Below, piece by piece: positions 45,656 to 51,426 of a stretch of 64,000 nucleotides of DNA. Source of the stretch: Asanoa ferruginea (lineage in GTDB: Bacteria > Actinomycetota > Actinomycetes > Mycobacteriales > Micromonosporaceae); assembly GCF_003387075.1 (NCBI RefSeq), contig NZ_QUMQ01000001.1, positions 1,302,001 through 1,366,000 of the forward strand. The letters are read 5' to 3'. The notes under the pieces were generated by a model. The model had not been told where the DNA came from, did not search any database, and saw only the letters and a program-made list of their open reading frames with translations. Both the position numbers and the translations under genes were made by a program. The stretch's first letter is position 1. Every line of letters starts with the position of its first letter.

Positions 45656-45964
45656 CTACAGCTTGATCTCGATGTCGACACCGGCCGGCAGGTCGAGGCG
45701 CATCAGCGAGTCGACCGTCTTCGGCGTCGGGTCGATGATGTCGATCAGCCGCTTGTGCGTGCGCATCTCGAAGTGCTCGCGCGAGTCCTTGTATTTGTGC
45801 GGCGAGCGGATGACGCAGAAACGGTTGATCTCCGTGGGCAGCGGCACCGGGCCCGCGACCTGCGCCCCGGTGCGGGTCACCGTCTCGACGATCTTGCGCG
45901 CCGACGAGTCGACGACCTCGTGGTCGTAGGCCTTGAGCCGGATGCGGATCTTCTGTCCCGCCAT
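45656..45964 (-). CDS. rpsJ: 30S ribosomal protein S10 (uS10/NusE)
   Basis: Head protein that also binds NusB and NusG. It has 102 residues from ATG 45964. [41 protein letters not shown] and [24 protein letters not shown] are canonical. It is the first gene of the S10 cluster, preceded by a highly structured leader of about 250 nt. Confidence 0.99.
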
Positions 45965-46217
45965 GGTGGCTTCTGTTCCTTCTCTCGATGCCGCTCTTGT
46001 CGTGGGTTTGACCCCACTCCTCCGACCCCCGCGGTCGGGCGTGTCGTGCCCTGTGACCAGGCTCCGCCGCAAAGCGGCGGTGTCTTTCGGGGTCGGACGC
46101 CTCTGAAGGAGGCGCCACGCGCGAGGTGGCTGCTGAGCCATTTGTCGCCCCTCTCGGCGCCAAATGGCGCAGAGAGCGGACCGCCTAGGGGCCAGCAGCC
46201 ACCGTCGCGTACGCAAC
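45965..46217 (-). ncRNA. Structured 5' leader of the rpsJ (S10) operon, candidate regulatory RNA
   Basis: This 303-bp gap has no gene. In RNA sense it starts with GGTGGCTGCTG pairing with CAGCAGCCACC, about 55 nt apart. The enclosed part can form either GCGCC-ATTT-GGCGC or GCCATTTG with CAAATGGC, and these exclude each other. Downstream are CGCCTC/GAGGCG, CCGCCGC-ttt-GCGGCGG (46064-46080) and CCGACC/GGTCGG hairpins. The last contains a 19-nt sequence (46028-46046) identical to one in the rpsL leader. Regulation by an r-protein is inferred; I know no named family that this matches. Confidence 0.5.
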
Positions 46218-46223
46218 CTGACT

Positions 46224-46253
46224 AGTATGCCGGATCCAGCCCGGCAGACCTAA
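46224..46253 (-). promoter_or_regulatory. Candidate promoter of the S10 operon
   Basis: Minus strand TTAGGT (-35, 46253-46248), 18-nt spacer, CATACT (-10, 46229-46224). The spacer carries TGCCGG/CCGGCA (46228-46233 and 46241-46246), which may also act as the tuf terminator. The -35 is weak. Confidence 0.4.
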
Positions 46254-46267
46254 TCGGGGTTACCTGT

Positions 46268-47461
46268 TTACTTGATGATCTTCGTGACGCGACCAGCGCC
46301 GACCGTGCGACCACCCTCGCGAATCGCGAACTTGAGGTTTTCCTCCATCGCGATGGGCTGGATGAGCTTGACCGACATCGTGGTGTTGTCGCCCGGCATG
46401 ACCATCTCGGTGCCCTCGGGCAGCGTGACGACGCCGGTAACGTCCGTGGTGCGGAAGTAGAACTGCGGACGGTAGTTCTGGAAGAACGGGGTGTGCCGGC
46501 CACCCTCCTCCTTGGAGAGGATGTAGACGGTCGCCTCGAACTCGGTGTGCGGGGTGTTCGTGCCCGGCTTCACCACGACCATGCCGCGCTCGACCTCGTC
46601 GCGCTTGGTGCCGCGCAGCAGAAGGCCGACGTTCTCACCGGCGCGAGCGTCCTCAAGGGTCTTGCGGAACATCTCGATCGCGGTGACCTTGGTCTTGAAG
46701 CCCTTCTCCTTGATGCCAAGGAGCTCGACGTCCTCGTTCGGCAGGAGCACACCGCGCTCCACCCGACCGGTGACGACGGTGCCACGACCGGTGATCGTGA
46801 AGACGTCCTCGACGGGCATGAGGAACGGCTTCTCGATCTCGCGCTCGGGCTGCGGGATCGAGGTGTCGACCGCGTTCATCAGCTCCATGAGCTTGTCGGT
46901 CCACTCGGGGTCACCCTCGAGGGCCTTGAGCGCCGAGACACGCACGACCGGCAGGTCGTCGCCCGGGTATTCCTGCGCCGACAGCAGCTCGCGGACCTCG
47001 AGCTCGACGAGCTCGAGCAGCTCCTCGTCATCGACCATGTCGCTCTTGTTGAGCGCCACGACGATGTAGGGAACGCCGACCTGGCGAGCCAGCAGCACGT
47101 GCTCGCGGGTCTGCGGCATCGGGCCGTCGGTCGCCGCGACCACCAGGATCGCGCCGTCCATCTGCGCGGCACCGGTGATCATGTTCTTGATGTAGTCGGC
47201 GTGACCGGGGCAGTCGACGTGTGCGTAGTGCCGCGCCTCGGTCTGGTACTCGACGTGCGCGATCGAGATCGTGATGCCGCGGGCCTTCTCCTCCGGCGCC
47301 TTGTCGATCTCGTCGAACGGCGTGTAGGGGTTCAGGTCCGGCATCTTGTCGTGCAGGACCTTGGTGATGGCCGCGGTCAGCGTCGTCTTCCCGTGGTCGA
47401 TGTGACCAATGGTGCCGATGTTGACGTGCGGCTTAGTCCGCTCGAACTTCGCCTTCGCCAC
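46268..47461 (-). CDS. tuf: Elongation factor Tu
   Basis: GTPase delivering aminoacyl-tRNA to the ribosome. It has 397 residues from GTG 47461, with AGGAGG 6 nt upstream. Motifs: [14 protein letters not shown] (G1), [12 protein letters not shown] (G2), [12 protein letters not shown] (G3), NKSDMVDD (G4), and domains 2/3 with [13 protein letters not shown] and the ending [18 protein letters not shown]. It is 113 bp after fusA, with a hairpin at the junction. Confidence 0.99.
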
Positions 47462-47536
47462 TGGTGTCCTCCTCAAGGACTTCTTGTTCCGTACGTCCTC
47501 GGCACCCTATGGCACCGACGACACTGTCCACTTGGT

Positions 47537-47566
47537 GGGTGCTGGGACGATGAAGCCCCAGCACCC
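47537..47566 (-). other. Intercistronic hairpin, fusA-tuf gap
   Basis: GGGTGCTGGG (47537-47546) and CCCAGCACCC (47557-47566) form a perfect 10-bp stem with a 10-nt loop, beginning 9 bp after the fusA stop. No U-tract follows. It may tune the tuf:fusA ratio by partial termination or by stabilising 3' ends. Confidence 0.6.
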
Positions 47567-47574
47567 TCACACAG

Positions 47575-49671
<2,097 letters not shown>

Positions 49672-49707
49672 TTCAATCCCTCTTCGTCGTCGTCGTTCGG
49701 CGGTGTG

Positions 49708-50181
49708 TTACCACCGGTAGTGAGCGAAGGCCTTGTTGGACTCCGCCATCTTGTGCGTGTCCTCGCGCCGCTTCACGGCGGCACCGAGACCGTTGCTGGC
49801 GTCGAGCAACTCGTTCATCAGCCGCTCGATCATGGTCTTCTCCCGGCGGGCCTTCGAGTACTGCACCAGCCAGCGCAGACCAAGGGTGGTCTGGCGCGGG
49901 GTGCGCACCTCGATCGGCACCTGGTAGGTGGCGCCACCGACGCGGCGGCTCTTCACCTCGATGGCCGGCTTCACGTTGTCCATCGCGCGCTTGAGGATGA
50001 CGACGGGATCGGTGCCGCCGCTCTTCTCACGGGCGCCTTCGAGAGCGCCGTACACGATGCGCTCGGCGAGCTGACGCTTGCCGCGCATCAGGATCTTGTT
50101 GACCAGCTGGGTGACCAGCGGCGAGTTGTAAACCGGGTCCGCGACCAGCGGACGGCGCGGAGCGGGGCCCTTACGCGGCAT
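49708..50181 (-). CDS. rpsG: 30S ribosomal protein S7 (uS7)
   Basis: Head assembly initiator, and str operon repressor in E. coli. It has 157 residues from ATG 50181: [61 protein letters not shown] and [21 protein letters not shown]. It starts 1 bp after the rpsL stop. Confidence 0.99.
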
Positions 50182-50182
50182 G

Positions 50183-50557
50183 TCAGCTCTTCTCCTTCTT
50201 GGCGCCGTAACGGCTGCGGGCCTGCTTGCGGTTGCGGACACCCTGGGTGTCGAGCGAGCCACGCACGATCTTGTAACGAACGCCGGGAAGGTCCTTCACG
50301 CGGCCGCCACGCACGAGCACGATCGAGTGCTCCTGGAGGTTGTGGCCGACGCCAGGGATGTAGGCGGTCACTTCGATCTGGCTGCTCAGCTTGACGCGAG
50401 CGACCTTGCGAAGAGCCGAGTTGGGCTTCTTCGGGGTGGTGGTGTAGACGCGAGTGCAGACGCCCCGCCGCTGCGGGCTGCCCTTGAGCGCGGGTGTCTT
50501 GGTTTTGGTCGTCTTTGCCTGCCGGCCCTTGCGGACCAGCTGCTGAATCGTGGGCAC
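50183..50557 (-). CDS. rpsL: 30S ribosomal protein S12 (uS12)
   Basis: Decoding-centre protein of 124 residues from GTG 50557. [44 protein letters not shown] and [30 protein letters not shown] are present. The lysines whose change gives streptomycin resistance (in TPKKPNS and GRVKDLP) are wild type. First gene of rpsL-rpsG-fusA-tuf, after a leader of about 260 nt. Confidence 0.99.
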
Positions 50558-50820
50558 CGGGTTTTCCGCTCCCTTCGGCCGCTTCCTAGCAGCCGCGCCG
50601 TCGCCATAACCGCCCGAATGAACGGTTCTCTTACAACTCCCACCGGGCCACGTGCTCCCGGTACCCGCGGTCGGGCGTGTCGGCCTCTCCACGGTCCCCG
50701 TGCGCGCTGACGCGAGCCCGGGTTTTCTGCCATTGTCGTGCTCGCGCACTCGGCGGCTTGTCGCTGCCTGGCCAGAACGGTGCGCGCACGCACGGATTGC
50801 CCGGGCGAGCCCGGGCACGA
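50558..50820 (-). ncRNA. Long 5' leader of the rpsL operon with a 19-nt box shared with the rpsJ leader
   Basis: No gene is seen between rpsL and 50944. The leader from about 50820 to 50558 holds GCCCGGG-ctc-GCCCGGGC near its 5' end. It also holds the sequence CGACACGCCCGACCGCGGG (50682-50664 in RNA sense), identical to that in the rpsJ leader, and an AACCG/CGGTT hairpin nearer rpsL. Function is inferred from the match and the GC-rich pairing. Confidence 0.45.
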
Positions 50821-50827
50821 AAGGAAA

Positions 50828-50856
50828 GAGTACCGATCGTCAGCGCACAGGTCAAA
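50828..50856 (-). promoter_or_regulatory. Promoter of the rpsL (str) operon
   Basis: Minus strand TTGACC (-35, 50856-50851), exactly 17 nt, then TACTCT (-10, 50833-50828). This is close to the actinobacterial housekeeping sigma consensus and lies in the gene-free stretch upstream of rpsL. Transcription would start near 50821. Confidence 0.75.
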
Positions 50857-50943
50857 ACCCCCTGTGCCACCCGCGATCAGGCCCTACCGCAGTCAATTGT
50901 AGCGACTGCTCCGGGAGACTGCCGAGCCAGGCGTCGTGCCCGG

Positions 50944-51426
50944 TTACGCGGCAAGTTGCAGGGCGAGCGCGGCCACGAACGCGACCACCGCGATGACCAA
51001 CCCGGCGATGCCGCAGATGAACCCGGCCGACGCCAGTCCCTGCCCCTGGAACCGCATCGAGGCGGCCGGACCTACCCGCCGGATCTGCCGCCGGGCCAAC
51101 ACGCCGAGCGCCACCCCCGCGGTTCCCGCCGCCACCGCCAGCACCGTGAACGCTCCCGCGGCCCAGGCGCCCCACCCGGCGTCGGCACCGACCAGCCCGA
51201 AGCAGAGCACCACGAAGGCCACGACGATCGCGGCGATGCCCGCGACCAGGGCTCCGATGGCCAGCCCCGAGGTCGCCGGCGCCACCTCGAGATGCACGAC
51301 ACCGAAGACGGTGCCCGGAACAGAATCGACGCGGCGGGTGCGTTGCTGCGCGTCAGTCGGCGGCGGCGGCACCGAAAGAGGTCGCGGTTGATTCACCGGG
51401 TAAGACGGTCCGCCCTGCTGCGCCAC
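50944..51426 (-). CDS. DUF4190-like membrane protein
   Basis: Protein of 160 residues from GTG 51426. A Pro/Gln-rich cytoplasmic N-terminus (NQPRPLSVPPPPTDAQQ) is followed by SGLAIGALVAGIAAIVVAFVVL, WAAGAFTVLAVAAGTAGVALGVLARRQIRRVG and GQGLASAGFICGIAGLVIAVVA. That alternation of four small-residue-rich helices with a Gly motif is typical of DUF4190. Function unknown. An upstream extension to 51486 would overlap the paralogue and was trimmed. It sits 25 bp after that paralogue. Confidence 0.8.
   Translation of the reverse strand: MAQQGGPSYPVNQPRPLSVPPPPTDAQQRTRRVDSVPGTVFGVVHLEVAPATSGLAIGALVAGIAAIVVAFVVLCFGLVGADAGWGAWAAGAFTVLAVAAGTAGVALGVLARRQIRRVGPAASMRFQGQGLASAGFICGIAGLVIAVVAFVAALALQLAA

Follow-up and report, generated by a model that had tools for sequence, protein, structure and literature searches.

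A conserved RNA element before rpsJ and/or rpsL in the main actinobacterial class and part of a sister class

Introduction

Why should the leaders of two separate ribosomal-protein operons carry an identical box? The question is raised by a 64,000-nt stretch of the Asanoa ferruginea genome (assembly GCF_003387075.1, contig NZ_QUMQ01000001.1, positions 1,302,001 to 1,366,000), referred to here as the window, in which a first-pass annotation noticed the same 19-mer before rpsJ and before rpsL. In the literature consulted, the control of these two main ribosomal-protein operons is little described in actinobacteria, a group with antibiotic producers, corynebacteria, and mycobacteria. The 19-mer belongs to a conserved RNA element that is found before rpsJ and/or rpsL in the main actinobacterial class, that of the window, and in part of a sister class. 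Its best reading is a ribosomal leader RNA undescribed as far as database and literature searches reach.

Results

The box and its two sites in the genome

The 19-mer CGACACGCCCGACCGCGGG was found exactly at positions 46028-46046 and 50664-50682, both on the minus strand. Allowing up to three mismatches, the window holds one other site, with three mismatches. In the whole genome (9,071,909 bases) there are two exact sites, one site with one mismatch, and eight with two. At up to three mismatches, 65 sites were counted genome-wide against 75 for a reversed-pattern control, so that only the exact pair stands out. The annotation had described the 19-mer as limited to the two leaders and unlikely to be due to chance, and its two copies are indeed the sole exact sites in the 9.07-Mb genome. 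The conserved unit is longer than described there: the 19-mer is real, and forms the 5′ portion of a longer, 25-nt box with the consensus CGACACRCCCGANCNCGKGNNYCGG, in which NNYCGG follows the 19-mer. The covariance model R1, built from sequences of this kind, gave 48.1 bits for the rpsJ box and 41 bits for the rpsL box. The first base of the box lies 82 nt before the start codon of rpsJ and 125 nt before that of rpsL. These distances place the boxes in different reading frames, which rules out a shared coding sequence as the explanation.

The single one-mismatch copy of the 19-mer (genome positions 8221236-8221254; positions 1737-1755 of stretch L001) has no YCGG tail and sits between an anti-anti-sigma-like and a DivIVA-like open reading frame, both named by eye. 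It did not recur beside the same genes in five other genomes of the genus, where three further one-mismatch sites all lie beside other genes. The site was therefore dropped as a candidate third target, not being kept within the genus.

Conservation in place across the class

The annotation suggested a search for the box before the same genes of other actinobacteria. At up to one mismatch, and with G or T at position 18, the 19-mer is present in 124 of 150 genomes of the order. Scanning public species genomes with the exact 19-mer pattern yielded at least 120 stretches with at least 124 sites. Among the matches listed, 124 exact sites comprise 88 before rpsJ, 27 before rpsL, and nine others. 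Three of the nine are near the edge of their stretch (L141, L142, and L171, the last reading into rpsL), another three fall in coding frames that closely resemble one another (L088, titled Reyranella, L161, and L165), and three are elsewhere (L109, L120, and L170). According to the titles of 80 of the 120 stretches, the matches include Streptomyces, Micromonospora, Actinoplanes, Nocardioides, Arthrobacter, Nocardia, Rhodococcus, Mycolicibacter, Corynebacterium, Dietzia, Frankia, Nonomuraea, and one uncultured Acidimicrobiales. In the last (L087), a class-type 19-mer without mismatch precedes rpsJ, and the title of the bin names another order; the case is either real or one of mis-binning.

Sequences from an exact-pattern scan carry no information on variability; variation was also taken from leaders located via the uS10 protein. 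The resulting class sample (L190-L278) consists of 89 loci, 29 from the uS10 search and 60 chosen from 144 genomes with a match. When two mismatches were allowed in 16 whole genomes, all 24 sites with no or one mismatch were found to precede rpsJ (12) or rpsL (12). A sample of 396 genomes of the phylum includes 60 from the window's class, and 54 of these have such a site; many of the 60 represent two families, f8 and f18. The six class genomes without it all belong to family f87, two other genomes of which have the box. Within the class sample, the box was found in 40 of the 85 rpsJ leaders and 34 of the 39 rpsL leaders in view. At the 38 loci with both leaders in view, 12 have both boxes, 22 the rpsL box only, two the rpsJ box only, and two neither.

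The spacing between box and start codon ranges from 39 to 274 nt (115 sites, among the matches listed), and the orientation is fixed, with 229 core sites in the box sense and two in antisense. Loose spacing together with fixed orientation suits an RNA better than a DNA site. The orientation counts, like the promoter and co-occurrence counts below, exclude rows whose gene start was at or beyond the edge of a stretch (rpsL of L099 and L249, rpsJ of L246 and L247), at most one or two of which may be included in the k-mer, 5′-end-helix, and class-variation analyses. The box is thus kept in place before rpsJ and rpsL across the class; neither absence from sister genera nor a multitude of unrelated genomic sites, either of which the annotation saw as speaking against its proposal, was found.

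The box is predicted to be transcribed from independent promoters

The statement of the annotation that both boxes lie inside leaders agrees with the promoter-like sequences located upstream of each. By a crude sigma-70 score, 133 of 134 rpsJ and 80 of 81 rpsL leaders have a promoter-like pair ahead of the box (86 and 48 in shuffled sequences), many of the scored leaders being closely related. The interval from box to gene holds fewer of these pairs than shuffles do: 13 versus 26 for rpsJ and four versus 10 for rpsL. In 131 of 133 rpsJ and 74 of 80 rpsL leaders, the predicted start precedes the box by 100-280 nt. The promoters themselves are conserved, as k-mer counts over the leaders indicate: the rpsJ promoter has the form GGCATACT-N3-CAGGTTGC, and in rpsL leaders TTTGACC and TCGTGCC are enriched. 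Conserved promoter-like sequences upstream imply that the box is transcribed, and by these predicted starts it lies in the 5′ untranslated region of ribosomal-protein operons. At both genes, promoter conservation was seen to extend just past the predicted start (CAGGTTGC for rpsJ, TCGTGCC for rpsL).

Among 84 rpsJ leaders of the class sample, 37 have both box and promoter, three the box only, three the promoter only, and 41 neither (Fisher p = 1e-16); diverged rpsJ promoters outside box-bearing leaders could be missed by the consensus. The distance from the end of tuf to rpsJ is 183-520 nt with the box (median 378, 19 loci) and 74-326 nt without it (median 139, 40 loci). Both results indicate that the box follows independently started transcripts and not the gene as such. 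The box of two related genomes (L229 and L277) begins only some 16 nt into the predicted transcript, so that the long leader portion ahead of it can be dispensed with there. These minimal rpsJ leaders are about 95 nt long, and the box is inside a possible hairpin (AGGTTGCC with GGCAACCT in L229, GGTTGCC with GGTGACC in L277) followed by a T run.

Occurrence in a sister class

Outside the window's class, the element was detected with covariance models R1 and R2; 17 new stretches were fetched, and G563, one of the two G197 sites, and G269, which had already been seen in the first round, were left out. In the sister class (families f28, f43, and f59), it was found in 24 of 49 genomes, at rpsL in every one. 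The 24 genomes represent 14 of 17 first-round matches and 10 of 17 further stretches; the remaining three and seven matches precede neither gene and are probably due to chance. The sister-class box can be as close as 20 nt before the start codon (L402). At no or one mismatch, a site occurs in only six of the 336 genomes outside the window's class, two of the six having it before rpsL, and the element is therefore not general in the phylum. In seven leaders outside the class with tuf in view, rpsJ is 12-208 nt behind tuf. The simplest history starts from an ancestral rpsL element, a second copy having arisen later when rpsJ acquired a separate promoter; the counts within the class fit a loss in either direction equally well. 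Such a history can be tested: the element goes with the promoter, and before an rpsJ that lacks a recognisable promoter it is mostly missing.

Structure of the box

The annotation had proposed that the 19-mer folds alone as CCCG-ACCG-CGGG. This fold was abandoned: its pair 9/18 is broken in 17 of 43 distinct sequences and in all nine sister-class 25-mers, and it shows no covariation. An alternative hairpin, CCGACC-NCGKG-GGUCGG, pairs box positions 9-14 with 20-25 around loop 15-19, and its 3′ arm is beyond the 19-mer. Three alignments were used: A1 with 43 of the 61 distinct class and sister 25-mers, A2 with 29 sequences, and A3 with 19 distinct 31-mers from 24 sister-class rpsL sites. In the class, the box is nearly frozen in sequence. 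Compensatory changes, which the annotation had said would, along with a conserved position, support a regulatory RNA, have some support in the sister class. In A3, 94.7% of the cells of the hairpin are paired; for the paired share, the covariation score, and the count of pair types alike, one of 500 shuffles did as well, although shuffling related sequences is a less than strict test of covariation. Pair 14-20 appears as CG, AU, UA, and UG, and pair 12-22 as GU, AU, and GC, and slid versions of the hairpin score far lower. Judged from this alignment, covariation of the sister-class hairpin has support but no proof. The mixed set gives no significant signal, 72 of 500 shuffles being as good.

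Two longer-range helices were tried and rejected. An outer helix between bases after the box and the upstream leader is weak (z mostly below 2.5, not at one place; up to 4.2 for one of eight segments at rpsJ). Pairing of the first bases of the rpsJ transcript with sequence downstream of the box gave z 0.9; the L229 leader can fold in this way, and 91 of 200 shuffles fold at least as well. At Rfam 15 gathering thresholds no match was found over the whole window, and up to E = 10 none in 45900-51000 overlaps either box.

A second element, roughly GACANNNGAACAGYGGY, was noticed in rpsJ leaders, mostly about 12-19 nt after the box (e.g., L046, L086, and L260). It occurs in family f8, in Nocardia-, Rhodococcus-, and Corynebacterium-like loci, and in f87. 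Its core AACAGYGG is present in 30 of 205 rpsJ leaders (four in shuffles) and in none of 98 rpsL leaders, and it is kept in f87 leaders without the box.

Discussion

A leader RNA with possible feedback on both operons

Taken together, position, orientation, conservation, restriction to two leaders, the link to promoters, and the sister-class covariation point to a leader RNA. We lean, by a small degree, towards the view that the box forms the conserved core of a leader RNA acting in cis, by means of which a ribosomal protein of the str/S10 cluster feeds back on the operons; protein binding, repression, and feedback are what we infer. Coordinate control of the rpsJ and rpsL operons would be the best reading of the sequence pattern. 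Transcripts of the str operon (uS12, uS7, EF-G, and EF-Tu) would carry the box near their front, as would those of the S10 operon in about half of the class leaders sampled. The box would present an unpaired CGAMACRC and, after it, a short hairpin whose loop is NCGKG. When in excess over rRNA, a ribosomal protein from the same gene cluster would most likely bind the box and thereby lower the expression of the operon or operons, tying the str and S10 units together. Such binding could work via a longer leader structure or affect transcription or stability. T runs are rare after the box, which makes a general intrinsic attenuator unlikely: a run of four T within 60 nt was found in nine of 144 rpsJ and four of 85 rpsL leaders (two and two in shuffles). 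As the 25-nt element is conserved at exactly two operons, coordinate control can be tested by a few base changes.

Which protein might bind was approached through likeness to rRNA. For the sister-class boxes tried and the Streptomyces form, the best gapped window in the mature rRNA of the Asanoa genome is 16S CGACCCCGTGAAGTCGGA, itself a hairpin, which we take to be helix 42. The numbers of shuffled queries that do as well there are 106 of 200 for the sister consensus, 15 of 200 for G470, one of 200 for G528, and 27 of 200 for the Streptomyces form. Pair-preserving permutations, applied to all sequences of a set together, did as well in six of 150 cases for six sister sequences and 14 of 150 for twelve mixed ones; for 17 sister sequences, 45 of 400 permutations were as good with the tail and 13 of 400 with the hairpin alone. 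Helix 42 is presumably touched by uS13 and uS19, with uS7 nearby. The gene for uS7, rpsG, is the second behind the rpsL box. As described in PMC10931766, uS7 starts assembly of the 16S part holding this helix and represses str in Escherichia coli. The resemblance of the sister-class hairpins to helix 42 and this repression together favour uS7, by analogy a tentative first guess at the ligand that may well be wrong. A fuller picture, in which an old leader RNA, common to two classes, copies helix 42 of the 30S head, uS7 or a neighbour such as uS19 throttles str and S10 together, the rpsL copy is ancestral, and the rpsJ copy came with the gain of a promoter, is slightly more doubtful still.

Several observations weigh against feedback by such a leader RNA. 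Six of the eight f87 genomes have no box at up to one mismatch. The link between box and promoter is inflated, because the promoter consensus was learned from box-bearing leaders. The distance of 39-274 nt to the start codon is too variable for a direct block of the ribosome-binding site, which is unlikely as a general mode of action. In the 43 mostly class sequences, the 9-14/20-25 hairpin shows no covariation beyond shuffles, and Mycobacterium-like leaders are mismatched in its middle. In the sister class, full double changes were seen in only two cells, and 46 of 500 shuffles have as many; counted by pairs, 119 of 500 do. The likeness of the sister-class boxes to helix 42 is weak. The window's own rpsJ and rpsL boxes have their best matches elsewhere in rRNA, where 190 and 146 of 200 shuffles, respectively, do as well, and for class sequences alone at helix 42, 129 of 150 pair-preserving permutations are as good. 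By plain sequence likeness the window's box stays at shuffle level against the rrn stretch, where model R1 gave no match up to E = 5.

Alternative explanations

The strongest alternative is a co-transcriptional signal read by the general machinery, such as a pause, antitermination, Rho-protection, ribonuclease cleavage, or 5′-end stabilising site. We consider it a minority prospect, clearly behind feedback by a ribosomal protein. It would account for a 5′ half of the box that is frozen in sequence rather than in pairing, for spacing that is loose to promoter and gene alike, and for the tie to the start of independent transcripts. A general signal would, however, be expected at other long operons, and all 24 sites in the 16 genomes are at these two; the sister-class covariation also indicates a specific fold.

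The second candidate for rRNA likeness, after 16S helix 42, is 5S rRNA for the 5′ part of the box. Here the unpaired 5′ segment and the first pairs would copy loop B/helix III, with uL18 or uL5, whose genes follow further along the S10-spc cluster, as the ligand; we regard this as improbable. The 5S sequence GAAACGCCCGG of the same genome is the best site in the 7.5-kb rrn stretch for box positions 2-12, and column-permuted profiles reached the match within 5S in only three of 5000 cases for the sister class and 62 of 5000 for the class. When all mature rRNA is considered, however, 1233 of 5000 permutations match the class profile and 31 of 5000 the sister profile. The likeness is moreover on one strand only, helix 42 scores higher in the gapped comparison, and the segment was chosen after being seen. 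In the window, rpsQ and rplN (named from translations) are 63 nt apart, so that one transcript could carry rplE (uL5) and rplR (uL18); counting against this, rplN is reportedly a separate operon in the tubercle bacillus, going by the title of Cortes and Cox 2015.

A DNA site for a transcription factor is somewhat less probable again. Five f87 leaders have a copy of the first 11-12 box bases upstream of the rpsJ promoter, and four of them have no leader box. Elsewhere, however, the box is downstream of the predicted start, in one orientation and at loose spacing, and covariation of a hairpin has no meaning for DNA. Chance likeness in GC-rich sequence, to which the many three-mismatch sites of the genome (no more than in the reversed control) might be ascribed, is already refuted by class-wide conservation in place and has practically no standing.

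Comparison with known leader elements

No rpsJ or rpsL leader element of actinobacteria was described in the literature titles and abstract openings searched, and the string of a 14-mer was unmatched. The leaders of Eckert and Weinberg 2020 (PMC7247131) are likewise conserved structured elements in 5′ untranslated regions of ribosomal-protein operons, and one Bacteroidia L13 leader is described there at two places (before rplM, rpsI and also rpsB); the table entries compared give actinobacterial leaders for L17 and L31 only and none for rpsJ or rpsL. The uS7 control of E. coli, in the account of PMC10931766, concerns the same str operon, and the box possibly mimics the 16S part organised by uS7. 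The E. coli site is between rpsL and rpsG, whereas the box is before rpsL and rpsJ; box sites with no or one mismatch in the 16 genomes were found only before rpsL and rpsJ, and a separate uS7 site between rpsL and rpsG was not searched for. The uL4 control of S10 outlined in the same article has a long leader before rpsJ, as here, and works via a Rho-independent terminator in it. Judged from that description and our T-run counts, the present element differs in having one box at two operons and few T runs.

The attenuators of Naville and Gautheret 2010 (PMC2965389) also include rpsL leaders, but these are terminator-based; they are described from Listeria, Xanthomonas, Pseudomonas, Rickettsia, and streptococci as having no globally conserved feature. 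The rpsJ motif RLC-47-1 (PMC11109978), a leader of three genera of Peptostreptococcaceae, is set apart by its description, and the term rpsL occurs nowhere in that article. For mycobacteria, the one case of autogenous control encountered is that of rpsO (PMC8470358).

Features of the two loci

The features of the two loci are collected in Table 1. The listed open frame of rpsG starts upstream of its likely start.

Table 1. Features at the rpsJ and rpsL loci (positions in the window)
Feature	Positions	Strand	Remarks
25-nt box, rpsJ leader, CGACACGCCCGACCGCGGGGGTCGG	46022..46046	-	CCGACC/GCGGG/GGTCGG hairpin possible
25-nt box, rpsL leader, CGACACGCCCGACCGCGGGTACCGG	50658..50682	-	hairpin 3′ arm imperfect
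rpsJ (uS10), first gene of the S10 operon	45656..45964	-	
rpsL (uS12), first gene of the str operon (rpsL, rpsG, fusA, tuf)	50183..50557	-	
rpsG (uS7), candidate box ligand	49708..50262	-	named from translation, without family search
rpsJ leader, predicted transcription start to start codon	45965..46217	-	
rpsL leader, predicted transcription start to start codon	50558..50820	-	
Predicted rpsJ promoter, -10 region and start, GGCATACT-AGT-CAGGTTGC	46213..46231	-	0 mismatches to rpsJ consensus
Predicted rpsL promoter, TTGACC-17 nt-TACTCT then TCGTGCCCGG	50811..50855	-	

The upstream copies in family f87 were found in L261, L265, L266, L271, and L272 as CGACACGCCCGGGTT(T)GC or a close form, 347-443 nt before rpsJ. 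L272 has two of them, and L266 also has the leader box. At up to two mismatches, the f87 upstream form gave four matches in six f87 genomes, three of them at rpsJ.

The frames of rpsJ and rpsL were observed to stay open upstream across the whole leader, to near the predicted start (45656-46216 and 50183-50818). Automatic annotation could therefore call the gene starts far too early.

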